Source: Anadara kagoshimensis (lineage: Eukaryota; Mollusca; Bivalvia; Arcoida; Arcidae). From it: a DNA stretch of 64,000 nt. The position numbers and the translations under genes were made by a program. The stretch's first letter is position 1; every line of letters begins with the position of its first letter. Positions 1-42,133 of the stretch are shown here, in pieces. The stretch is taken from positions 46,580,576 to 46,644,575 of the forward strand of contig CM037870.1 in the NCBI GenBank assembly GCA_021292105.1, written 5' to 3'. The notes below the pieces were generated by a model. It worked only from the letters and a program-made list of their open reading frames with translations. It made no database searches and was not told the origin of the DNA.

Positions 1-2497
1 ATCAAAACTGCCTTATGTTTCTGGTATTGATTGTTATACTTCACTGTGTTAATTCTAAATATTCAGAGAAACAATTACTTTGTTCTTTATCAGTGTTAGA
101 ATTTTATCCATTATTTATCATAAATCTATGTTCAATGTTCCGGTATGCTTCAGCAAACAACCACGCAAAAATATATGTAAATTATTCAGCTAAGCTGAAG
201 GTATATTTGTGTAACGATTCAGTTAACTTATTTATGACGAATGACATATGAGATAAAAACAAGTGAATTGAATTATCTAAAACAGAAGAAAGATATTTCA
301 AATTAAAACATGTACTTGCTTACAAACTTATTGTCTTAGTATACAAGACAAATCGTTGATAAAAGCTGCAAAACAAGACCAAAAAAACGCATATTGGGAC
401 CATTAATTATTAAAATTTCGACACTGGAGGGAATGTCCATTGGTGGTTATGGTACTTTTTGCGCCCTTAAACAATTCCAATTACTTTACAACCAGTGATC
501 CATAAAACGCACATTTGAAAGTTATCATTATTATTGTGAAAACTTAACAGAAATGTCATCAATAAATAGTTTTTGTAAGGTGTGTGTTGTTATTAATGGC
601 ATAATCATGCCACTTTATCAACACAATCCTTTTTGTATTGGGTAAACAAAACCAGAATTAAAAAGACTATAATTTACATTTTTATGGTCTGTAGCTGTAT
701 ATTATTACCTTATTACGAGGATATAAGTTTTTAAAACTATCATTATTGCTTGCCATAGTACTTGATAATAACGTGTTTATTTTGTCTTGATTTCCTATTT
801 TGTATGTTTGCTGTGATAGGCGTTCCTTGTTGTTTTGAACTGAAATCTATGTATAAACGCCACCTGTAAACTGAGCAAACGTGGGCTTATATGAAAAGAC
901 AATTAGTTTGTTTTATATAGAAGATCATCCATTAGTACGTGTAAACGATTATAAAAATATCAATACCCAGTAAAATACTTATTTGTAAAATGGTTGTATT
1001 TGCATAATATATTTGTTTTAAAAAAATTCTTTTTTTTTTTAAAAACTGACTCCATGCATTTCTACATATCAATGAGGTTACATTTTTAATTACTGTTGGA
1101 ACTATTCTATTTATGACAGTAAAATACTCTTTATTTCCATAGAAAATCAAAGAAATTTGAATATTTTGAATAAGGATTGATATTTTTTACTTACTTGTAC
1201 CTAGTCGTAATTGAAAATCTATATGCGCATACGCGATTGTCATCAATTATTTCTTTAGAAAGGAAAATGTTGGCGTTATGGTTAAACCAGGCACGATATT
1301 TTAACCTTTTATACCCTGAACTCTTGATTATTGTTTGACATGCTGATTTACATTGACTAAAAAAGGTATTACACAAATGGTAGTTGTGTGGTTACAATGT
1401 TGCTTTAAAAACCAATTATCAAAGCATATTTGTGACGACTACCCTTGGCAAAAAATATGTCAACAACATCTGTAATTGTATCAAAAATAATCCTACGTAA
1501 TTTATTGATAGTCTTAAAACGTAATAGCAATAACATCAACATGCCTATCGGCGAAAAATACACATTGAATAACAGTAAGAAACCCATAATTCGGTAAAAT
1601 ATTTGACATAATTATTTGTATTGTTTTAGACACTGAAATATCAACGCAACCATGAGCATGTTATGTGAAAACACCTTACAATAACGCAACACATACTAGG
1701 GTTCTTAATATAGTTTCCTACTTTTGACGTGCATTGGAGTCAGTTTCAGAGATGTGGATATTGTATCAATAGGTTGTATCAACCATCCCACTTTTTTGAC
1801 ATTTTGGTGTGCCATTTATATGCACTTTTATTGATCGTTTATTACCGTATGAAAAACAATATTTGAATGAAGTCCCAGTATAAAAGTTAAAAGCAATCAT
1901 ACCATTTGTTGATGAATGCTTGAATAATTGGGCGAAGAAAGATCAGGGTGATAGTGTTTATTTTTAGTGTGTGCATTAACTTGTATCAATTGAATAAAAT
2001 GATTCTGAAAATTTTGTCGGTGAAAAACAAAACGTTTGTTTAAACAAGTTTTTACTTAACTTGCGTGGTTAACGTTCTAATAAAGGGATTCAATCATACC
2101 AATCATACAAACAATTGCTTAGAAATAAACACATTAAAATAATAAATAAGCATTTTTTGACTTAAATGTTTTAAAATACAGTAGCAGAATTAAAACTTTA
2201 TGGTAACTATACACATTTAATATTGAAGAGAATTGTTTGTACCTTAAAAGAATTAAGACATTTTGTCAGTACATGTGTTACACAATTAAACATACACTAT
2301 ATTTATATAAACATATATGATAAAATAAGCCAATTCAAATACTAGCAAAAATTGTATTTGTAGCTGAAAAATGTGTACTTTGCAATAATCACTGACACAA
2401 ATAACAAGCAACACGAAGTTCATGACAAAACAATACGAGGTAATGACGGAAACAATATAATGCTGTAACAGCAACACAAGACAAACGTGGAAACTGA
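1..2497. other. A+T-rich DNA with no recognised gene
   Basis: I see no coding similarity, RNA gene or clear repeat here. The open frames are under 80 codons, A+T-rich and without recognisable domains, so I treat them as chance. Confidence 0.6.
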
Positions 2498-2676
2498 TTA
2501 AAAATAAAAAAACAAATTAATCCATGTCCGAATCACAATCCAGAAAATAAAAAACTTTGGAATTGACAAGGAAGGCTAGCAACGTGAACTTCCACAAGAG
2601 AAGTGAGACCAGGTGCTCCGGAAGAGTAAGCGCCTCTTGTTTAGCTAGCTACACTCGTCACGTGTGTAATCAAAAA
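2498..2676 (-). mobile_element. Naiad pseudo-LTR copy, inverted relative to the full element
   Basis: Reading the minus strand, this matches the block that follows the reverse transcriptase stop in the full element. It runs from ATTACACACGTGAC through TAGCTAGCTAAACA, the TTCCGGAGCACC core and the GGACATGGATTA end. It is truncated on its 5' side just upstream of the ACACGTGA box. It lies 840 bp from the full element in opposite orientation, so it may be an independent insertion or part of a complex inverted insertion. Confidence 0.75.
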
Positions 2677-3518
2677 CCTACCGCCTATCGGCTATATTTA
2701 CCGTAACAGGACTAACTGATAATATAATTTCCAATAGTGTGTAGTATCGGAGGACCCCAACTATCCCGAAGTGGTCTGTAAATATGCACATTCAAAATTG
2801 ATATTACAAAGCAATGAACAATTTACGCTGACATAAATATGTTTATGTATAAAAAATTCAAAAACACATACCATTTTATTTTTATGTTATCATCGTTGCA
2901 TAATATCCAACAAAATTTCAATACTCTTTCCAGAGTCATTTATTTAAGAACTAACAACTCATATACTAGATTTATGCATTCTTTCCTAAATTACACAAGG
3001 ATGTCCTCAAAGTAATATAATGATAATGCAGTTAAAAAGCAAAATCTTCAGCATATTTCAATTACTTGTATCTTTCATTAATGTTCTTTGGATTTTCAGT
3101 AGGAGATTAAACTCACTTTACTATTCCTTGAAATTACCGTACATGCAGACTTTTAGTACTTTGGTGTATATTAATGTTAAATTAAATTTTGTATGCACAT
3201 CGATTTCATTTATAACATCAAACAGAACCAATATTAAAGCAGAGAAGATTTGTGTTATAATAGTCTTAAGAAGATACAGGTTATCGGATTTAAAATGAAT
3301 GAAATCTTATCCTTTTTTAGGTTGTCTTTGAAATCTAAATATTGGTTCTTTGCAAATTTGTTTTCACTAATATTTTCTAAAATTTTTGTACACCTATATT
3401 TTTGATATTCCATTCCTTTTTGTATGAGATTTCTAAAAGTACTTTTAAACTTAAGTTCGTTATTAAAACTAGCAAAGAGTCTAAAATAAGAAATTCAAAG
3501 GCAATATTACTAGTATAT
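2677..3518. other. Spacer between inverted Naiad copies
   Basis: No recognised gene or repeat. A 92-codon open frame at 3,020-3,298 is A+T-rich and resembles nothing I know. Confidence 0.5.
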
Positions 3519-3670
3519 GGTGTAGCTATCTAAACAGGAGGTGGTTACCCTTCCGGAGCACCCGGCCTTACTTCCCTGGTGGATATTCACGTGCCTAACC
3601 TGACTTGTTAGTTCCAAAGTTTTCACTGTGTTTCTGGATTGTGATTCGGACATGGATTAGTATGTTATGT
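3519..3670 (+). repeat. 5' pseudo-LTR of the Naiad element
   Basis: It starts at GGTGTAGCTATC and lacks the upstream ACACGTGA box present in the 3' copy. It continues through CTTCCGGAGCACC and TTCACGTGCC to ATTCGGACATGGATTAG. An in-frame stop at 3,642-3,644 lies inside it, so the reading frame opens only at its end. It probably carries the element promoter, since it directly precedes the open frame; this is inferred from position. Confidence 0.8.
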
Positions 3671-3692
3671 TATTGAGTATAATTTGGTTTTA

Positions 3693-4385
3693 ATGAATCA
3701 CTATGCATCTATGCTCAGAGAGCCTGAGACGTCTCGCTCTATAAAAAGGTCTCCTGCTAGCACTACGGGTACTAGACTAGCAGTTAATATTGGTACCCCT
3801 AGGATTATCCTTCAGGATATTATCAAAACGTCATATGTTGCCAGTTCCGATCATCGTTACTTCTATAAAGATTCACAAGACACTTTCAAACAAATAAAAA
3901 AGTCTACAATTAAACTTTCAGATATTTTTAATTATGATGACAATTTAAATTACTGCACCGTTACAACTTGTAAATCAAAAAACTGCAAAACCTGTAAAAT
4001 TTTAATAACCGATACGCATTTTGCCAGTAACCTTACATCTAAAAATTACACTTTACGAAGTCACGATGATCTGAATTGTAAATCTTCCAATGTTGTATAT
4101 GGAATAGAGTGCAATTTATGTGGACTCATATATGTGGGTGAAACCAAAGTTAGAATAAATATACGTATGAATGGACATCGGTTTGATATCAATAACAATG
4201 GTAATCAGTTTATTTATCAACATTTTAACCAGCCGGACCATTCTGTGTTATCTATGAAAGTCAGGCTTTTGGAAAAATTATACCACCAAACAAATAGTCC
4301 TACATTTAAGCACTCCATACCGATTACAACGGGAAAATTACTGGATAAGAGAACTAGGCACTGCTTCGCCATATGGATGCAATGA
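3693..4385 (+). CDS. GIY-YIG endonuclease half of the Naiad polyprotein (frameshifted)
   Basis: The first ATG of the open frame is at 3,693; an in-frame TTG at 3,684 is a less likely start. The protein has a basic N-terminus, then a Cys-rich stretch (CTVTTCKSKNCKTC), then a GIY-YIG endonuclease core: NVVYGIEC, CNLC, LIYVGET, and MNGHRFDI with the conserved Arg/His region, ending in HFNQPDH. The CxxC and the two later His residues match the CCHH zinc-binding set typical of Penelope endonucleases. The domain should nick target DNA to prime reverse transcription. About residue 205 the homology passes to the +1 frame (near 4,300-4,312). The last 25 or so codons to the TGA at 4,383 are therefore out-of-frame sequence. 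The next frame contains the expected end of the domain and runs into the RT. All Cys codons here are TGC or TGT; no in-frame TGA suggests selenocysteine. Confidence 0.85.
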   Translation: MNHYASMLREPETSRSIKRSPASTTGTRLAVNIGTPRIILQDIIKTSYVASSDHRYFYKDSQDTFKQIKKSTIKLSDIFNYDDNLNYCTVTTCKSKNCKTCKILITDTHFASNLTSKNYTLRSHDDLNCKSSNVVYGIECNLCGLIYVGETKVRINIRMNGHRFDINNNGNQFIYQHFNQPDHSVLSMKVRLLEKLYHQTNSPTFKHSIPITTGKLLDKRTRHCFAIWMQ

Positions 4386-6663
4386 CAAAATTGTAAGCGT
4401 AGGAAATCTTTCAAGCCCGGGTTGTAACAATGTAAATGTTTTACACTTGTTCAACAAAACACCACGTGACAATAGAAGTCATGGACATCGCCGTTATAAC
4501 AGACCCAATATCCATGATGTTAGTTTTCTTAATCTTTTACCATTCCTACAGAAACCTCTCGGATTACACCATATCCGAACTAAACTCTACTCTATACCAC
4601 TATCCCGTCTTAGACAGTTACAAGAAGAATGCATATCTAAAACTACTATAGATTCAAATACACCAGAATATAAGCTTACTGCTATCATCATGGATATTGC
4701 TTTTAATAGATTATTTAAACCTGCTCGGGAAAACGATATTGATAACGATGGTCAACACCAATATCTTAAGTTACACTATGCTAACAAAGGCATAAATGCT
4801 ATAAACATTTCCAATATTCTTCAAAATAAACAAGTCCAATCTAAAATTCCTGCTTATTTCAAAATTAATTCTCCACCTCTAGTTTCCTACTCCTGCTATA
4901 AACCTATTGCATCCAAAATATTTAATTATAAACAAACATTGCAGTGTTTAAACTTTCATAATTTTACTCCACCTACTTGCTCTTGCTCCTCTTCTCCCTA
5001 TATTTATGGACCGGCTGGACATGTAATAACTGGTGATCTCAATATAATTGAGAACACCAAATTAAGATTTTTACTTTCAAAAGGTCCTAAATATAGAGAA
5101 GCTCAACCTTTTACTTGGGGACAGAATTTCCGACTTGTCATGGATTCCGTTGAAGAGTACGCCAGACGTTGTGCTAAATTAGAAGATGTTGAGCTTGATA
5201 CCTTATCCGACTGGATAAAGGTTGTGAGATCTTACGTTAAAACTAAGATTGCCAAACTTAAAGGGTCTATGAGTACTAAATCGTCTTCAGTACTCAAGGA
5301 TCCAGAAAACAAATATGTTGTTGTCCCAGCTGATAAGGCTTCCAACAACATTATTCTCGTTTGTAAGAGATTCTACCTTGAATGTCTTATTAAGGAGCTT
5401 GGTTTAGATAGTATATCAAATAACCCTGCATATTCTAGAACTAGTTTTACCAAAGATGAAGTTCTTTCCAACCATAGGGGAGTTCTCGAGTCTTTCGGTA
5501 TCAATCTTAAAGAGGAAGATCTTGATCTTCCTTACTTGTATTGGATTCCTAAACTCCATAAAAATCCATACAAGGAAAGATATATAGCAGGCTCATCTAA
5601 ATGTACTACTAAATCATTATCGGTAACTCTAACACAAATTTTGACAATCGTCAAAGATGGTCTTCAGTCTTATTCAGAAAAAGTATATTCTACATCTGGA
5701 ATCAACCAAATGTGGATTCTCAAAAATTCTAAAGAATTACTTGAACATCTTGCTTCTAATACTTTATCTCATGTAAAAAGTATAAAAACATTTGATTTTT
5801 CTACACTATACACCACAATCCCTCATTCTAAATTGAAAAAACGTCTTAAAGAAATTATTCACTTGTCTTTCTTCTACAAAAACGGTAAGCCAAGATACAA
5901 ATATCTGGTGCTGAACAGGGATTCTGGTTATTTTGTCAAGCATCATACGGATTCCAAACAAAAATATATTGAAGATACCATCAACAAAATGTTGGAGTTT
6001 TTGATAGATAACATATTTGTTGTGTTTGGTAATATAGTTTTTCAGCAAACAATCGGTATACCAATGGGTACAAACTGTGCACCATTGCTTGCTGATTTGT
6101 TTCTTTATTCTTACGAAGCAGAATTTATGCAGAACCTTGTTAAATCTGGAGAGAAAACTGTCGCCAAATCATTCAACTCAACATACAGATACATAGATGA
6201 CGTTCTGTCTCTTAACAATCCTAAATTTGGAGACTATGTAAATGTCATCTATCCTAGTGAGCTTGAAATAAAAGACACGACTGATTCCTCAAGTTCTGCT
6301 TCATATTTAGACTTATACCTGAATTATGACGCACAAGAAAGGCTACATTTGAAACTTTATGACAAACGTGATGACTTCAATTTTTCTATTGTCAACATTC
6401 CTTTTTTATGCAGCAATATACCTGCTTCTCCTGCTTATGGTGTATTTGTTTCCCAATTAATACGCTATGATAGAGCTTGTTCCCACTACGGGGACTTTGT
6501 ACAACGAAGTAGGCTGCTTGCAAATAAATTGTTGACTCAGGGATATTGCAAGCCTAGGCTTATCAAGGCCCTCAAAAAGTTTTATGGCCGTCATCACAGT
6601 ATTGTTGATAAGTTTGATGTCTCTGTGTCCAGGATTGCCTTGGATATATTTGACGTCTCATAG
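4309..6663 (+). CDS. CxC linker and telomerase-like reverse transcriptase of the Naiad element
   Basis: This frame is entered from the endonuclease frame through the +1 shift and has no start codon of its own; the nearest alternative is a TTG at 4,447. In order it holds the end of the GIY-YIG domain (ELGTASPYGCND), a linker with the CSC motif at 4,978-4,986, and RT motif 1 (VVPADKASNN, near 5,330). Motif 2 follows (YWIPKLHKNPYKERYIAG, near 5,540), then motif A (FDFSTLYTTIP, near 5,791). An insertion of about 70 residues precedes motif B (TIGIPMGTNCAPLLADL, near 6,050); its position between motifs A and B matches the insertion-in-fingers domain of telomerases. Motif C is YIDD (near 6,190), then SYLDLYLN, and a C-terminal thumb-like region ends at TAG (6,661). 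All three catalytic Asp residues are present. The enzyme would copy the element RNA at a nicked target. Confidence 0.9.
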   Translation, partial: STPYRLQRENYWIRELGTASPYGCNDKIVSVGNLSSPGCNNVNVLHLFNKTPRDNRSHGHRRYNRPNIHDVSFLNLLPFLQKPLGLHHIRTKLYSIPLSRLRQLQEECISKTTIDSNTPEYKLTAIIMDIAFNRLFKPARENDIDNDGQHQYLKLHYANKGINAINISNILQNKQVQSKIPAYFKINSPPLVSYSCYKPIASKIFNYKQTLQCLNFHNFTPPTCSCSSSPYIYGPAGHVITGDLNIIENTKLRFLLSKGPKYREAQPFTWGQNFRLVMDSVEEYARRCAKLEDVELDTLSDWIKVVRSYVKTKIAKLKGSMSTKSSSVLKDPENKYVVVPADKASNNIILVCKRFYLECLIKELGLDSISNNPAYSRTSFTKDEVLSNHRGVLESFGINLKEEDLDLPYLYWIPKLHKNPYKERYIAGSSKCTTKSLSVTLTQILTIVKDGLQSYSEKVYSTSGINQMWILKNSKELLEHLASNTLSHVKSIKTFDFSTLYTTIPHSKLKKRLKEIIHLSFFYKNGKPRYKYLVLNRDSGYFVKHHTDSKQKYIEDTINKMLEFLIDNIFVVFGNIVFQQTIGIPMGTNCAPLLADLFLYSYEAEFMQNLVKSGEKTVAKSFNSTYRYIDDVLSLNNPKFGDYVNVIYPSELEIKDTTDSSSSASYLDLYLNYDAQERLHLKLYDKRDDFNFSIVNIPFLCSNIPASPAYGVFVSQLIRYDRACSHYGDFVQRSRLLANKLLTQGYCKPRLIKALKKFYGRHHSIVDKFDVSVSRIALDIFDVS

Positions 6664-6862
6664 TTCCATGTTCCTTTCACACAATTTTGATTACACACGT
6701 GACGGGTGTAGCTAGCTAAACAGGAGGTGCTTACCCTTCCGGAGCACCCGGCCTCACTTCCCTGGTGGAAGTTCACGTGTCTAACCTAACTTGTCAGTTC
6801 CAAAGTTTTTACTTTGCTTCTGGATTGTGATTCGGAAATGGATAAGTATGTTTGTTTTTGAT
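6664..6862 (+). repeat. 3' pseudo-LTR of the Naiad element
   Basis: It begins right after the RT stop. It contains ATTACACACGTGACGGGTGT, TAGCTAGCTAAACAGG, GGTGCT...AGCACC (a 6-bp stem around CTTCCGG), TTCCCTGGTGGAA, TTCACGTGTCTAACC, and the 3' end ATGTTTGTTTTTGAT. This end is shared by many other copies in the window, so it marks the element 3' terminus. The outer ACACGTGA and TCACGTGT boxes are mutually complementary. Confidence 0.85.
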
Positions 6863-8867
6863 TGTATAGGTTCCAACATATATATTTATGAAACAATACG
6901 TAATGACACTAAAATAAAATTGTAACTGTCTTATGAATAAATAACATATATACGCACGTTGTTGTTCGTTCATTGTTTGGTAAAGTAAATCTTTTTGAAT
7001 TAGAAGAAAGAAAGTTGCAACGAGAAATGTACCTGACAAAAGCTAACGTAACCAAAACTACAAACGCAATATAAATGAATGATAAAAAAATTGAACCTAG
7101 ACAAAATAACACAATTCATAGTTTTTGATTATTGTAAGGGACTGATAATTGTAAACTAGGGACGGAAACTACCAAGGCTATAGACACATTGTTTTTTTCT
7201 ATTAGATGATTGTTTTACTATCAGTTACCTTAAACATTTTAAACAATCTGTTTTTATTTCGTTCCTTTGTTGTTGATATTCTTAGTTGCCAAGTATGTTA
7301 TCAGATACCAATTTTTTGTGTATTACTTGTACGTGTCAGTATTATTTTTTCCGTTAAGTTTTAATGTTGCATTTGTTGCATCTGGTTATTTTCATTGCAA
7401 TTCTGGGAATAATTGTAATGTCATTTTTTCTAATTAAAAATGAAATGATCAGTTATGTTAAATGAAGGAAACAGCTCGGTTGTATATACATACTGGCTTA
7501 TATAAAAGCATTAAACAAAACCCTTGCTGACATAAATGATGAGCATAGTTCTTTATAATGGTATCTTATAAATCATTATGATGCGTCAACGTAGAGTATT
7601 GTGTTTGATATTCATTACATTTACCACATGGCCATAGTTTCTTATCCTTTAGTTGATAAAGTAAAACAAGCAATAATATGAAGATTTATGTGCATTGTTT
7701 TTGTTTTCATAGTAGAACCAATTATTGGAAATTCTACTCTGAAAGCCCGTGAGATTGTGGAGGGTAGAATAGATTAAAATTAGCAGTATTCGGTATCTAA
7801 GTCCGTCGTCATACCATCAATAAGCGGATTGACCATTGTAATTGAAATGAATGTAATTTCATTTGAAACGTTACTACCTTACGTTTGAAAGAAAAAAGTA
7901 GCATTTATTCCCCGGAATATAATCTCTTTGATAGTAGATGGCTAACCCTTTTATATATTTTACGGTTTCTGGACTTTTATCACTTACTGGTTTTTATATG
8001 GAATATGCAAATTTACTGTTAAATTAAGACCCATATTCAAAACAATTTGTCTTAAAAATCGATTGGCCAAATGTAGAAAGTTTTGACGAGGAAAATCGAC
8101 GAATAAGCGAGGATTACTCTTAATTCATTGCGTCCGGATCCGACAATAGTAATAGTAATAATAATAAGTTATGTTAATTAGTTTACCAATTTTTTTAAAT
8201 CGTTTGGTTTAATGAAACCAAGTTACATGCTGTTGGGTAAAGCCAATTTTCCTAAAACGAAAGCCAATATTTCTCAATTGTTGCCTAACTGTGTTCCTTT
8301 GAGCCAATTAAGGTTTGTACATGATTATTTATATGTTATTAAAGTTTTAATTGTAATCAAGTAATAAATATAACCAACTGATCGTTAAAGGTCTCTTGTT
8401 TTTTATATTGCGAAGATTCAATTTAATAACCGAATTTAAATACTAGTCAAAACATTCAATTTTAATTGTTTTGAGTGTGTGTAAGCATTTAATTTGTTTA
8501 TTTTCCAGTTGTCTCATCAAGTCTATCAATTCAACAATAGAAGTCAATTTAATTGGTAAAATGTCTGGAGACGCAATCAAAATGGAAATCGGTTGGTATG
8601 TCAATTATCATATGCATACCTTTTTGTCTGATGTCTGTACATCATTATATTGCAATTATTGCTTTGTACAGATACGTTAAATAAAGTTTGCATGATGTGG
8701 ATAACGCTATGTCAAACAAAATAACAACTGATTGAATTATATGAGTAGCCAACTTACCTTATTCATACAATTTACAATTTATGACCATCTCCAATCAAAG
8801 CAGATATGGCTAACTTTTTATAATCATCAAAGGCTCTGATCTATCAAATAAAACAAAATATCAAAAC
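6863..8867. other. No recognised gene; short AAT-rich microsatellite
   Basis: A TAG/TAA-type microsatellite lies near 8,143-8,167. Nothing else is recognised; open frames are short and featureless. Confidence 0.5.
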
Positions 8868-20757: not shown

Positions 20758-20818
20758 ATTTGATAAGAACTTTCATGCCTTGAAATCTTACGTCTTCGGG
20801 CAGAAGGTATAGCACTAA
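20758..20818 (+). repeat. Left direct repeat flanking a truncated Naiad copy (target-site duplication)
   Basis: These 61 bp (beginning ATTTGATAAGAACTTTCATG) recur at 21,847-21,907 with three mismatches. They bracket the truncated element exactly and are not part of other Naiad copies in the window, so they look like a target-site duplication. Confidence 0.75.
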
Positions 20819-21649
20819 ATTGAAAGAACGTCTTAAAGAAATTATTCACTTGTCTTTCTTTTACAAAAACGGTAAGCCAAGATACAAATGTCTGGTGCTA
20901 AACAGGGATTCTGGTTATTTTGTCAAGCACCATACGGATTCCAAACAGAAATATACTGAAGATACCATCAACAAAATGTTGGAGTTTTTGATAGATAACA
21001 TATTTGTTGTGATTGGTAATAAAGTTTTTCAGCAAACAATCGGTATACCAATGGGTACAAACTGTGCACCATTGCTTGCTGATTTGTTTCTTTATTCTTA
21101 TGAAGCAAAATTTATGCAGAACCTTGCTAAATCTGGAGAGAAAACTGTCGCCAAATCATTCAACTCAACATACAGATATATACACAACTTTCTGTCTCTT
21201 AACAATCCTAAATTTGGAGACTATGTAAATGCCATCTATCTTAGTGAGCTTGAAATAAACGACACCACTGATTCCTCAAGTTCTGCTTCATATTTAGACT
21301 TATACCTGAATTATGACGCAAACGAAAGGCTACATTTGAAACTTGATGGCAAACGTGATGACTTCAATTTTTCTATTGTCAACTTTTCTTTTTATGCAGC
21401 AATATACCTGCTTCTCCTGCTTATGGTGTATTTGTTTTCCAATTAATACGCTATGGTAGAGCTTGTTTCCACTACGGGGACTTTGTACAACGTAGTAGGC
21501 TGCTTGCAAATAAATTGTTGACTCAGGGATATTGCAAGCCTGGGCTTATCAAGGCTCTAAAAAAGTTTTATGGCCGACATCACAGTATTGTTGATAAGTT
21601 TCAAGTCTCTGTGTCCAGGATTGCCCTGGATATATTTGACGTCTCATAG
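20819..21649 (+). pseudogene. 5'-truncated Naiad reverse transcriptase, inactive
   Basis: Homology to the full element begins just after RT motif A (at the equivalent of LKKRLKEIIHL) and runs to the stop. Motif B (TIGIPMGTNCAPLLADL) is intact. Motif C reads YIHN instead of YIDD, which removes the catalytic Asp pair. One missing T near 21,388-21,395 shifts the frame, so the open frame ends early at 21,446 although DNA similarity continues to TAG at 21,647. It cannot encode a working RT. Confidence 0.88.
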
Positions 21650-21848
21650 TTCCATGTTCCTTTCATACAATTTTGATTACACACGTGGCGGGTGTAGCTA
21701 GCTAAACAGTAGGTGCTTACCCTTCCGGAGCACCCGGCCTCACTTCCCTGGTGGAAGTTCACGTGTCTACCCTTACTCGTCAGTTCCAAAGTTTTTACTT
21801 TGCTTCTGGATTATGATTCGGACATGGATTAGTATGTTTGTTTTTGAT
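21650..21848 (+). repeat. 3' pseudo-LTR of the truncated Naiad copy
   Basis: It is nearly identical by eye to the pseudo-LTR at 6,664-6,862, including ACACGTGGCGGGTGT, TAGCTAGCTAAACAGTAGG, CTTCCGGAGCACC and GTTTGTTTTTGATTT. Its end abuts the right-hand direct repeat. Confidence 0.85.
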
Positions 21849-21907
21849 TTGATAAGAACTTTCATGCCTTCAAATCTTACGTCTTTGGACAGAAGGTATA
21901 GCACTAA
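21847..21907 (+). repeat. Right direct repeat flanking the truncated Naiad copy
   Basis: This is the partner of 20,758-20,818. The first few bases overlap the pseudo-LTR terminus (GATTT), so the exact junction is ambiguous by 2-4 bp. Confidence 0.75.
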
Positions 21908-27556: not shown

Positions 27557-28379
27557 TTGTACGTTTCATTTTGATTTACAAGAAAACAACTTAACTTACC
27601 ATGGAAAATGTAGGATAGGTAAAACGCAGATATTTAAATCATTAAATTAGGATTGGCTCGAAATGACAATTTTACTTTGTAATATTCTTATGAATTAAAA
27701 GTGATGAACTTCACAAATGAAAGGATTGGTAGTAAGAGTTTGAAATTATGTTTTAATATTGATTGCGTCGTTCTCGTTTATGCAACATTTCAACAAGATT
27801 TGTTTTCAGATTAAATGTGAATTTCCTTTACATTATAAGTGTAAACATCCATTAATATTTATTATAATACAAAGAAACAAAATTAATAGTATCCGCAATC
27901 TGTTAAGTTTAATATAAACCACCAACAGACTTCCCTTAGTTTTTATTAAACAAAGAGAATATTGTTTTTAAATAACAGTAAAAAACGAATAAATAAGGTG
28001 AAATTGCAGCAACTGATTTCAAAGAATTACAGAATTATGAATACATATAATTTTAGTTTATTTTATCGTAAATTATACGGGATAAAATAATTTATCTTAT
28101 TATATCTATGGTAACATTAGATATAAACAGGTAAATTACTATAGTTTTCATATCACAAAAATGAAATTATTTGCTGATCTAAGATATACTTTGATCTATT
28201 TATTGACATGTTAATACATCATTAATCGCCACAATCTATATCGATTAGAAAATAATAATTTGATTTGAACTGTAAAATATTACAAAATAAAACCTGACAG
28301 CAATTTTGCATTTTTCTAAATCATTATTTATGGTCGTCATTGTCTTATTAATAATGTCTCTGTTTCAAACGTATCCTGA

Positions 28380-28538
28380 ATCAAAAGCAAACACTCGTAC
28401 TAATCCATATCCGAATCACAATCTAGAAGCAAAGTAAAAACTGACAAGTTAGGTTAGACACGTGAACTTCCACCAGGGAAGTGAGGCCGGGTGCTCCGGA
28501 AGGGTAAGCACCGTCTGTTTAGCTAGCTACACCTGCAT
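28380..28538 (-). mobile_element. Well-preserved Naiad pseudo-LTR copy
   Basis: On the minus strand it is close to the 6.7-kb pseudo-LTR: GTGTAGCTAGCTAAACAG, GGTGCTTACCCTTCCGG, AGCACCCGGCCTCACTTCCC, GGAAGTTCACGTGTCTAACC and GATTCGGATATGGATTAG. It is truncated at its left side next to GGTGTAGC, like the 5' pseudo-LTR of the full element. Confidence 0.78.
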
Positions 28539-30054: not shown

Positions 30055-31004
30055 TGGTTACTCATAAGATGATTAATATGAAAATTAAGGGGTTTTTTCA
30101 TTGCCATTCTTAAACGTTCATTTTCTATATGCATTACCCAAATGTATTGACATTTTTGTATTATATTAAGAAATAATGTTCCATCACTATTAAGACAACT
30201 AAATTCGTGATTGGATAAAATTGTCATTTTTCTATTATTTCTATAGGGACAATTTCCTCCTGCCTAATTCATAATCATTAGCATAAATTTGTAAAACCTT
30301 TGTAACAAGTCTCAAAACACGCAAGGTTGCATCAGCATTCAAACACGTTGGAAAATATGCTTAAAATGAACTTAATATAACGAAATATGAAAAACTGAGT
30401 AAAGCATTCTGCTGACAACATTGATTAAATTGTAATGTTTTAAAAAGAAGTTTTAAACTTTATTCTAGAGAAATATTTTCCCATATGAACATAATAATAG
30501 ATCAAAGATTAAGATATTTTGCTCAGAAGAACCATGAAGTGTTATTCTAACACAACATGCACAATGTTTTCTTATTTTGTATCATTTGACAGTAAAATAT
30601 TGTGAAAATCTTACTTCTCTAATGAGTTACTTAAAAACTTAGCGTTTTAAGAACACGATCAATACCATTAGAACCAATGAATGCATGATCTAAGTATTCC
30701 AATTAGGTTTTTTCTATACATGTATTTCTATCCGTATTACACTAATCACATTCCCCATGTGCGCATTAACTTCAATACCTACTTAAAGAGGTACCTTGGT
30801 GGCCACTACAGCAGAAGAAAGATAATAAAACTAAGATTTGCATTAGATTGTATTTGTACTGAATTTTTAAATCCATATCAATGACATCATAAAATATATT
30901 TATTGTCACATTACAACGTTGACCGTTGAAGAATTCCATTTTGATTCAAACCAGTATATTTTTGGCTTCCTTAGCAACCTCGTTGATTATTACATATCCG
31001 AAAA

Positions 31005-31680
31005 GCAGGAGAAGCATGTATATTCTGTATAGAAAAGTTGAACATGAAAGCTGACAATAGAAAATTTGAACTTCTCACGTTTGTCATAAGGTTTCAAATT
31101 TAGTCTTTCGTGGGCGTCATAATTCAGGTTTAAGTCTAAATATGAAGCAGAACTTTAGGAAGCAGTCGTATCTTTTATTTCAAGCTCACTACGATAGATG
31201 ATATTTACATAGTCTCCAAATTTAGGATTGTTAAGAGACAGAACGTCATTTATATATCTGTATGTGGAGTTGAATGATTTGACGACAGTCTTTTCTCCAC
31301 ATTTAACTAGGTTCTGCATAAATTTTGCTTCATAAAAATAAAGAAACAAATCAGCAAGCAATGGTGCACAGTTTGTACCCATTGGTATACTGATTGTTTG
31401 TTAGCGTTGGAAAATTATATTATCAAACACATATCAAAAACTCCAACATCTTGTTGATGGTATCTTCAGTATATTTTTGCTTGGAATACGTATGATGCTT
31501 GACAAAATAACCAGAATCCCTGTTCAGCTCCAGAAGTTTGTATTTTGGCTTACCGTTTTTGTAGAAGAATGAAAAGTGAATAATTTTTACGACGTTTTCT
31601 CAATTTAGAATTAGGGATAATTGTGTATAGTGTAAAAAAATCAAATCAAATTTTTACACGAGATAAAGTATTAGAAGCAA
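31005..31680 (-). pseudogene. Naiad reverse transcriptase remnant, minus strand
   Basis: The minus strand encodes pieces of the RT from the region just before motif A (EYLASNTLSRVK) to a little past motif D. Frameshifts lie between blocks. The longest open part (31,155-31,382) holds GTNCAPLLADLFLYFYEAKF and YINDVLSLNN. Motif C is YIND, so one catalytic Asp is lost, by a change different from the YIHN of the 21-kb copy. The 3' part and 3' pseudo-LTR are missing. Confidence 0.85.
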
Positions 31681-31757
31681 GATATTCTTTGGAACTTTGG
31701 AACTGACAAGTCAGGTTAGCTTCCACCAGGGAAGTGAGACAGGGTGCTCCGGTAGGG
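31681..31757 (-). mobile_element. Pseudo-LTR fragment fused to the RT remnant
   Basis: In element orientation this reads ACCGGAGCACCCTG, CTCACTTCCCTGGTGGAAG, then TCAGTTCCAAAG, and passes directly into RT codons. The whole endonuclease and linker region is deleted at the junction. Confidence 0.72.
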
Positions 31758-33985: not shown

Positions 33986-35975
33986 CAGAACCTATATACA
34001 CGTGATGCTAAGTAAATTAATAGTATACGTTCGTTGATTCATTACATTTTTATTGCAGATTGACATGATACTGGTAGATAAGTGAATGTACACGATGAAG
34101 ATGATGTATCTCTCAAATTTGATACGGGCTAAAGGTTTTTGCTGATGATGATCGTAAACAAGAGATTGCTGGACATGAGGGGGTCAATCACATAAAGTAT
34201 TGGAGACTTGGTTGGCCTCAATATATCTGAGTAATAATACATCATCTTTGTAATTTGCCGGATTGATGAAAATAAATAATTTGTCTTATACAGTTAGACA
34301 TCGTTATCAATAATGTTTTGTTACACAAGATAGCTTTTGCTTTCTCGGTCAAATGATTCCTTGGAAAGATGTAAATTAAATCCTGGGAACCAGCTTCGGA
34401 AAAAATGGATTTTGACACACCAGGATGGACCTTCTAGTTTAAAACTTTCTGTATCAAACGTTTATTAGATAAAGTATAAAGCTTAACTTTGATCTTCGTA
34501 GATACAGAAAGACATTACCTATCAATAGTTGAAGAAAGGTATACAATCTTCAATCTTAGTACTGTCTCTTTAATTGCAACCTCGCCGACAACACTAGAGA
34601 TTATCAATGACGACACAACTATAAGCTATATGAAGGAGGGTGGATCCTAATTAATAGCTACCCCACCACTCTGTATCAGAGGGACTCAATCGTCTCTCTC
34701 AACTAGCTCTCAATCTCGAAGTGCAGTATATCTTTGCAGCATATAACATGTCTTTCAAAGTTTAATATTACTTTTTTGAGCAGCCTAAATTACATGATTC
34801 AGCAAAACATAGTTGTTGAATCAATTAAGATATACAATGTATTAGGTGCATTTTATTTAGATATTACGTCAATTTATACTACGGAATGAAGTGGGTCTTT
34901 ACTAAAATAATATTTGGTGTTTTAGTATAAGATTTATCCTATTACATATGATACCAGTTTTAATATAACATCCCTTACTAGATACAAGGTACTAGATACG
35001 TCGTTTCGGAATACGATTTCTTATCAGAAGTGCTTGGGTCAAACTTGTGAAATTAATTTTTTTCAAACGTTGAAAAGACACCAGTTATCAGAGATTTCAT
35101 ATTGACTTTAGATGTTTGAATAGAAAACGGATGACATATTTGAAAAGCATGATAGTTGTAAATTCATACTTGCTTCTGTACTATTGAAATATCTCAATTC
35201 ATTAAAATAACATCCGATATATCAGTAGCTTAGTATCAATCACAAATGTTTTTAGAAATTTTAAAATTTACAAAACAGATCATTTTGATCAGCAATGTTT
35301 TGGTGATATTGGATTATATCGTCAATAAAAATGGGATGAAAAGCATGACTATATGTAAAATCACACTTTCTTCTTTACTACTAATTGAAATATCTTAATA
35401 AATTAAATCTAATATATCTTAATTGATTTGGTGCTTAAAAACAACCACAAAATGTATTTTCCCCAGGGATAATGACAGGTTCTTTCCATTAAAATCATTA
35501 CTGCCATATAATTATGTGTTTAGGTCAACGCAATTTAATTCTAAAGAATAAAAAGAACGAATTTCTTATAAGTTTAGAATATATTTATCTGTAGAAATTA
35601 CAAATACAATCAAAAACAATCTTATCTTATATATCTATGGTAACATTAGATAAAACACAAACATAACTGTGTCCTTGACATCACAAGAATCATTAATCTC
35701 TCTGGAAACATCAACTGATCTAGGATATTCTTAAATCAATTTATCGATATACATATTAAAATACATCTACCTATAATTATTTGTACTTATTCTATCATAT
35801 AAATATATAACTAAATTGTACATTAGTTTTATCAAAATAGTTCAGCAATCTAAAACGACTAGAAAATATCAATTATCTGGACTCGATTGTTCAATGCTTC
35901 GTTCGCGTAACCAAATGGTTAATGAATTTCGAAAATGGTATTATAAATATTTGTTAAATAGCTTCTCTAAGTCTT

Positions 35976-41728: not shown

Positions 41729-42133
41729 AATAAATAAATAAAGTATGGCTCTCAACACTTAGAATAACTGATGCTAATATGATTTATTGTCGACATGTTT
41801 CGACAGCTAGGCTGCCGTCATCAGGACTGATATAATACAATTTCAATTTCCCTGAAGTACAAAAAATGGCTACATAAATGGCTCAAAATTGGCTAAGTAT
41901 AATCACGTGATATTGATTGTTTTGATTGTGTTGTTAGTAACTGTACTGTTTGTTTACACTTGTAAGTATTATTGTAATTTAACAGTTTGTAATATTGTTC
42001 ACTTATTAAAATCATTAAAATTCAAAAGAAAATTAACCTGATTGTTTGTTGTTATTTATATTGTCCGCTGAATATTCCATAAACACTGTAAACATATACT
42101 TCCCTCGTTGTTAGCGAAGGAGGAAGTTCATCT
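41729..42133 (-). repeat. Left pseudo-LTR-like arm (inverted)
   Basis: Reverse complement of 42,621-43,021. It runs from AAGTATGGCTCTCAACACTT to AGGAGGAAGTTCATCT. Confidence 0.85.
41787..41848 (-). ncRNA. Hammerhead ribozyme motif, left arm
   Basis: On the minus strand the core CUGAUGA (41,818-41,824) is followed by stem II (GGCAG pairing with CUGUC), GAAAC (41,797-41,801), a minimal stem III and the cleavage triplet GUC before GAC. Stem I can begin with GUC/GAC pairing. Very short stem III is typical of Penelope-associated hammerheads. All core residues I can place are present, though the 10.1-11.1 pair is C/C rather than G-C. Self-cleavage is predicted, not shown. Confidence 0.62.

Follow-up and report, generated by a model that had tools for sequence, protein, structure and literature searches.

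A truncated Naiad-type Penelope-like element of Anadara kagoshimensis and a leader stem-loop that its family shares with hammerhead retrozymes

Introduction

A stretch of 64,000 nt from the genome of the bivalve Anadara kagoshimensis (C14:46580576-46644575; hereafter the window) contains a retroelement with sequences of a GIY-YIG endonuclease (EN) and a reverse transcriptase (RT). A reading made from the letters alone (the sequence-only reading) had taken positions 3519 to 6862 for a nearly complete permuted-domain, or Naiad-type, Penelope-like element (PLE). The Naiad clade of PLEs was reportedly defined by Craig et al. in 2021. The locus raises the question of what this element is, where its RT would begin to copy, and whether other elements make use of that enzyme. 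The explanation that we favour, and regard as probable, is that the window holds a damaged Naiad copy, that a stem-loop common to Naiads and hammerhead retrozymes serves as the handle for the start of reverse transcription, and that the Naiad RT mobilises the retrozymes.

Metazoan retrozymes are described as non-autonomous elements of 170-400 nt (Cervera and de la Pena 2020, PMC7229834), and the enzyme that spreads them is left open in two reviews, which suspect PLEs or long interspersed elements (LINEs) (PMC7761336 of 2020, PMC11722881 of 2024).

Domain order of the family and condition of the window copy

The GIY-YIG endonuclease, the CSC linker, the RT with an insertion between motifs A and B and the YIDD motif named by the sequence-only reading are all present in two open frames, 3645-4385 and 4258-6663 (Table 1). 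The Pfam matches in these frames, PF01541 in the first (E 0.0048) and RVT_1 in the second (E 0.00016), score under the curated cut-offs. No internal stop was found in the RT frame, and the idea of a selenocysteine was dropped.

The genome (1.115 Gb, 36 contigs) was searched by protein with the RT frame, and 56 of the 66,656 first-look candidates were scored; there are at least 57 scored matches, at least six of these 57 lying in stop-free frames of more than 900 codons. The loci and contig stretches compared, which carry L-numbers here, comprise Naiad copies, retrozymes, canonical PLEs (L075, L076) and contigs associated with Bathymodiolus (L001-L003). The sister copy L008 has a frame of 998 aa from its ATG, in the order EN (GIECNLC at residue 137), CSC (429), motif A (709), motif B and YIDD (842). 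Since EN and RT share a single frame in L008, the two frames of the window represent one broken open reading frame (ORF), and the element is one rather than two unrelated adjacent insertions. The permuted order is also borne out by comparison with L075, a canonical Penelope of the same genome that came to light among weak matches of a search with the EN; it has two near-identical 497-codon frames in opposite orientation, each with the RT first and GIY-YIG last. (These two frames overlap at their 5' ends; L075:1904-6000, both strands.) The Naiad EN (L008 residues 96-232) aligns with the C-terminus of the L075 protein (368-496; E 4e-20), including a CxxC and two His that make up the CCHH residues, whereas the Naiad RT (708-967) aligns upstream of that EN (49-271; E 1e-9). 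The interval between motifs A and B spans 88 aa in the Naiad and 60 aa in L075, a difference of 28 aa. This is the insertion noted by the sequence-only reading, and it may correspond to the IFD of telomerases. An RT structure prediction had a pLDDT of 36 and was not used, and a sequence search of the PDB gave no RT match.

The layout of the family is pLTR (pseudo-long terminal repeat), leader stem-loop, one ORF (EN, CxC, RT; 998 aa in L008) and pLTR, and pLTRs as well as tandem and inverted copies are present. As judged by these alignments, the family is one permuted-domain (Naiad-type) PLE. Relatives were sought elsewhere: none was confirmed in viral contigs, by protein or by pattern, and neither phages by protein nor plasmids by DNA gave a match. 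A pattern search of genome contigs matched 190 stretches, six of them encoding relatives, three in Bathymodiolus symbiont assemblies, taken as host DNA, and three of cyanobacterial origin, which are presumably intron RTs.

As to the boundaries, the 5' end proposed at 3519 did not stand. Four sister copies (L008, L009, L010, L013) align with the window copy only from about 3717, and L011 and L012 are shorter. The 36 nt or so following the repeat at 3519-3681 do not resemble the family leader. With the 3' pLTRs of five other copies compared, L014 included, the window 3' pLTR shares 98.7-100% identity, while the repeat at 3519 reaches only 91.1% to the window 3' pLTR and is therefore most likely an older fragment. 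That repeat was considered as the 5' pLTR of the element and ruled out, because the copy that shares it, L014, is a segmental duplicate of the window locus and the other four join at about 3717. L014 lies on the same contig about 1.5 Mb away (G000:C14:45080140-45085521), is 97.8% identical over 5.39 kb with both flanks in common (98.0% for the upstream flank), and its element sits in a 1014-codon frame. The comparison points most likely to a neighbouring, older solo pLTR outside the element, and to the element itself being a young 5'-truncated copy that adjoins it, again most likely. The frame of the window copy is broken where EN and RT overlap, and a short in-frame deletion sets it apart from L008; the copy is also devoid of leader, 5' pLTR and native start codon. 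Thus it is not the good reference for the family that had been hoped for, but an ordinary if damaged representative of the Naiad-type PLEs, a known kind.

A leader stem-loop shared with hammerhead retrozymes

We read 25 Naiad 5' regions, namely those of 20 matches reaching residue 1 or 2 together with L008, L009, L010, L013 and L014. A leader, CTACTGGGTCGGTG..CCCAGTCG, precedes the ATG in 23 of them (complete in 20; not found in L013 and L014), and in 19 of the 23 the end of a pLTR directly precedes it. In the sister copies, outside the window, this leader is a stem-loop of 60 nt that lies after the pLTR and before the start codon, and diverged copies have retained it, among them L048, whose EN has 48% amino acid identity. 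The folding energy of the stem-loop is better than that of most shuffles in L036 (z -2.41) and less markedly so in L048 (z -1.38). At the other end of the element, 28 of 56 fragments, drawn from the window and from 200 kb of sequence elsewhere in the genome, end at positions equivalent to 6858-6868, which bears out the 3' end of the sequence-only reading, at 6862/6863. This terminus, TTTTTGATT, lies 6-8 nt before the point where the stem-loop would start in a tandem. Since the genomic 3' ends cluster there, insertions stop just before the position of the stem-loop in a tandem RNA.

The Naiad leader also matched a second kind of element (L018, E 3.4e-5), where the match lies in a tandem repeat that has a hammerhead core. 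A DNA search of the genome with this retrozyme unit, in which scoring began with the best of 2,539 first-look candidates and covered 40, gave at least 87 matches, and 20 loci were fetched. The repeat (L018, L055-L074) has a unit of 338 nt and occurs in single and tandem copies; a strict type I hammerhead core is present in 10 of the 20 fetched. All 20, which are best-scoring matches, end at TGTAAT, and most of their flanks differ. Among loci chosen on other grounds, 11 of 13 retrozyme fragments have their end at profile position 296-298. Within retrozyme tandems, the sequence after TGTAAT is TTAAACCCCTGAGCCG or one much like it, and this is the module that corresponds to the Naiad leader.

One Naiad and one retrozyme module align without gaps over 60 nt with a score of 147, compared with maxima of 110 and 108 in shuffles (5,000 each way) and a score of 81 on the opposite strand; the pLTR has no match to the retrozyme unit (140 versus a shuffle mean of 134). 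The shared alignment starts 3 nt past the Naiad terminus and 4 nt past the retrozyme terminus, and the first paired base is 6-8 nt beyond the terminus in both. The retrozyme keeps 19 of the 21 Naiad pairs, three of them through two-sided changes, with two broken, and the same inner fold is predicted for both. In an alignment of 22 sequences (9 of the 23 Naiad leaders and 13 of the 22 retrozymes at hand, R_L011 having been dropped), 94.5% of the cells are paired, a value that none of 500 shuffles attained (mean 89.8), and the covariation score exceeds that of all 500.

A structure model was then scanned against 366,049 bases from 36 sources, comprising the window, random samples, Naiad loci, canonical PLE loci, cyanobacterial loci and the Bathymodiolus-associated contigs, with L007 and 40 small loci (L035-L074), which had been selected for their leader or retrozyme, left out. 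It matched six places: the Naiad leaders of L008, L009 and L010, the retrozymes L018 and L011, and the contig L001. L018 was part of the model, unlike L001 and L011. No match came from the canonical PLE stretches L075 and L076.

Naiad-like retroelements are also present on L001, L002 and L003, three contigs assigned to genomes of Bathymodiolus symbionts; these contigs resemble host DNA and are presumably from the mussel. The match in L001 (2307-2236) has an E of 3.8e-8 with the structure model and 4.4e-4 with the sequence profile alone. By eye, a hammerhead-like remnant (CTGATGAAGG..AAGAAACG) lies about 120 nt beyond the module in L001, and a second partial unit ends at CACTACT, where the module would begin.

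A second conserved RNA fold in the pLTR

The pLTR carries a fold of its own (Table 1). The stem P0, the palindromic P1, a GAGG/CCTC stem with an inner hairpin, and P3 were proposed before outside sequences were seen, with a mussel repeat as an aid; the pseudoknot pairs were added after L002 had been seen, and the strands were anchored by hand. L002 keeps 27 of the 29 pairs, ten of them by two-sided (compensatory) changes, and none of 200,000 simulated nulls reached either number. Over 17 sequences, 16 pairs vary with two-sided changes (one of 500 shuffles was as high), and shifting the pairing partner lowers every measure.

It is rather unlikely, in our estimation, that this fold is a self-cleaving ribozyme in the position that a hammerhead occupies in other PLEs. 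The conservation in L002 speaks for it, and four of the 56 pLTR fragments start at the equivalents of 6703-6705, just inside P0. However, this clustering of starts is weak and uncontrolled; a ribozyme cut at GGGTG, once proposed from the coinciding 5' ends, was for that reason demoted to a side question. The more decayed L001 and L003 keep just 17 and 15 of the 29 pairs (gaps counted as lost), folding energies of the pLTR are not unusual, and predicted folds differ partly from the model, the lowest-energy fold of L002 included. In addition, no Rfam match at the gathering score was found in the window, nor any ribozyme match with E up to 10 in 2400-7000; Rfam also missed the hammerhead core of the L018 retrozyme, so minimal hammerheads can escape it.

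Proposed mechanism and alternative explanations

The following course of events would account for these observations. The Naiad protein would bind the leader stem-loop in its own RNA, the endonuclease would cut the target DNA, and the RT would begin reverse transcription within that RNA, at a point 6-8 nt upstream of the stem-loop. Such an internal start would leave genomic copies ending in ..TTTTTGATT, with the stem-loop visible only in tandems and full 5' ends. Through the same stem-loop, the Naiad RT would also copy retrozyme RNA in trans, much as a LINE copies a short interspersed element (SINE). Because the retrozymes carry the same stem-loop at the same distance past their 3' terminus, copying in trans by the Naiad RT is most likely.

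An internal start has been described for PAc, a Poseidon-type PLE of Anolis (PMC11167929): its RT begins within the RNA, for which the first 172 nt of the ORF are required, and PAc cuts and extends both strands. Among 56 termini there are two cases in which a Naiad and a retrozyme meet tail to tail by their 3' ends, 2 nt apart in L011 and 29 nt apart in L025, and no Naiad-Naiad pair of this kind was found within 30 nt. By analogy with PAc, cutting and extension of both strands could yield such pairs.

Several points weigh against this explanation. Protein binding and RT start are proposals from sequence comparison. The two tail-to-tail pairs are an uncontrolled observation. Selection of the retrozymes started from a single unit and took its highest-scoring matches first, and the sample of 20 contains at least two copies that are not independent, flanks being common to L058/L073 and L062/L018. 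The pair count over 22 sequences excludes the two outer pairs that are broken in the retrozyme; only three pairs of the stem-loop vary two-sidedly, all between the Naiad and retrozyme groups, and this number was equalled in 439 of 500 shuffles, as was the pair-type count in all 500. The retrozyme stem-loop has an unexceptional folding energy (z -0.75; 45 of 200 shuffles as good). The L001 match lies in a degenerate repeat, and a hammerhead pattern search gave nothing in L001-L003. Furthermore, other kinds of element may carry the module too, the scan having covered 366 kb.

Among the alternatives, shared descent with no present function fares best, and we consider it unlikely. Here one of the two elements would have captured the module from the other long ago, the retrozyme being, for example, a reduced relative of a Naiad, and a different RT would now do the copying. 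PMC11722881 does suggest that retrozymes are products of PLE genome reduction, and this genome harbours another PLE, L075. However, the pairs of the module have been kept through three two-sided changes, its spacing from the 3' terminus has been kept in both elements, and the canonical PLE stretches yielded no match to it.

A quite improbable alternative is that the module is a promoter, a translation site or a site for a host protein, the 3' termini arising from RNA 3'-end formation rather than RT binding. Its location directly before the Naiad start codon would suit such a role, but retrozymes keep the module even though PMC7229834 describes them as short and non-autonomous, and at least for one PLE, PAc, an internal RT start is known (PMC11167929). 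Finally, that the locus is a canonical Penelope with a C-terminal endonuclease, or two unrelated neighbouring insertions, is scarcely credible: the window does have the two domains in two frames, but sister copies such as L008 have the EN first and in one frame with the RT.

Copying of retrozymes by the Naiad RT through the shared stem-loop is thus the explanation we retain. A broader version of it, to which we incline by a narrower measure, is that Naiads are the autonomous partners of bivalve retrozymes through an old handle that occurs in a repeat of a deep-sea mussel too, the pLTR fold perhaps being an undescribed ribozyme or an RT-binding RNA that replaces the hammerhead.

Abundance and other features of the window

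A profile search found 24 pLTR-family fragments in the window. Elsewhere, a search with a single sequence took in 200,000 bases, made up of 20 samples of 10 kb placed at round coordinates over seven contigs; it found 36 Naiad-family fragments, which cover 7,072 bases (3.5%), and none in eight of the samples. Scaled to the genome, this corresponds, as a very rough figure, to 200,000 fragments (Poisson interval 140,000-278,000, clustering ignored). The same samples held eight retrozyme fragments, corresponding to about 45,000 in the genome (19,000-88,000).

Head-to-tail runs of retrozymes are present at G000:C5:45166721-45169149, C3:9335934-9339360 and C17:57489952-57491250; they fit multimeric or circular templates, as expected. 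A hammerhead-like core (CTGATGA..GAAAC) with a stable predicted stem II lies at 41824 of the window on the minus strand; it is not tied to a Naiad and has no Rfam match at the gathering score.

Table 1. Positions of the element, its pLTR fold and related sequences in the window
Feature	Position	Strand	Basis
Older inverted pLTR fragment, same superfamily	2503..2675	-	87.6% to window 3' pLTR
pLTR copy, most likely an older solo pLTR	3519..3681	+	91.1% to window 3' pLTR
Naiad-type PLE, 5'-truncated and frame-broken	3717..6863	+	Start is the joining point of L008-L010 and L013
Open frame with GIY-YIG endonuclease and CCHH-type Cys/His residues	3645..4385	+	PF01541 match at 4092-4214; alignment with L075
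Open frame with endonuclease end, CxC linker and RT	4258..6663	+	ORF list; Pfam; L075 alignment
CSC (CxC) linker motif	4978..4986	+	Sequence reading; alignment
RT motif A (FDFST) to motif B (PMGTNC), with IFD-like insertion between	5791..6084	+	L075 comparison
YIDD catalytic motif (motif C)	6190..6201	+	Sequence reading; alignment
3' pLTR; family genomic 3' terminus at 6863 (TTTTTGATT)	6685..6863	+	Profile and copy comparison
Conserved pLTR RNA fold	6695..6780	+	Pair comparison across copies
Fold stem P0	6695-6702/6773-6780		
Fold pseudoknot PK	6704-6707/6733-6736		
Fold stem P1	6709-6711/6716-6718		
Fold stem P4	6724-6727/6752-6755		
Fold stem P4a	6728-6731/6743-6746		
Fold stem P3	6756-6761/6767-6772		
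Second family copy, 5'-truncated	20815..21849	+	95.4% DNA identity over 1036 nt
Solo pLTR	28379..28533	-	96.0% to window 3' pLTR
Third RT-bearing family fragment	31003..31687	-	86.6%
Retrozyme 3' part, ending at the retrozyme family terminus (..TATGTAAT)	34941..35083	-	Profile match

Comparison with known systems

Naiads have the features seen here: an N-terminal GIY-YIG domain with Cys/His residues, a CxC linker, an IFD-like insertion and YIDD, together with pLTRs, tandem and inverted copies, and a very high copy number in an invertebrate. A hammerhead may be lacking here as well, the Rfam searches, which can miss minimal forms, having found none. To our knowledge, neither the leader stem-loop held in common with retrozymes nor the conserved pLTR fold is among the features that Craig et al. 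gave in 2021. No report of a handle shared by Naiads and retrozymes was found in the literature searched, which lacked most subscription papers and the paper defining Naiads; to our reading, an RNA handle common to both and placed alike relative to their termini is new.

The retrozyme repeat itself agrees with metazoan retrozymes as described in PMC7229834, in its unit of about 340 nt, its minimal type I hammerhead core and its single and tandem copies. In PMC7761336 (2020), metazoan retrozymes are said to lack any conserved motif from which the partner might be deduced, whereas those here have a conserved module and a fixed 3' terminus. PAc resembles the start proposed for the Naiad in that its RT starts internally with the needed RNA on the ORF side, and differs from the Naiad in its C-terminal endonuclease and in the hammerhead at its pLTR-ORF junction; the passages of PMC11167929 consulted draw no link to retrozymes.

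In the literature searched, we found no biochemical study of a Naiad. A structured module that is shared and placed in the same way names one candidate partner for the retrozymes and gives an assay, and for a Naiad it predicts the RNA handle and the start site. The arrangement is reminiscent of SINE/LINE pairs, in which a non-coding parasite likewise carries the RNA handle of an autonomous element's RT. There, however, the shared part is a 3' tail; here it would be a structured module, copying would start inside the RNA upstream of it, and that RNA may become circular.

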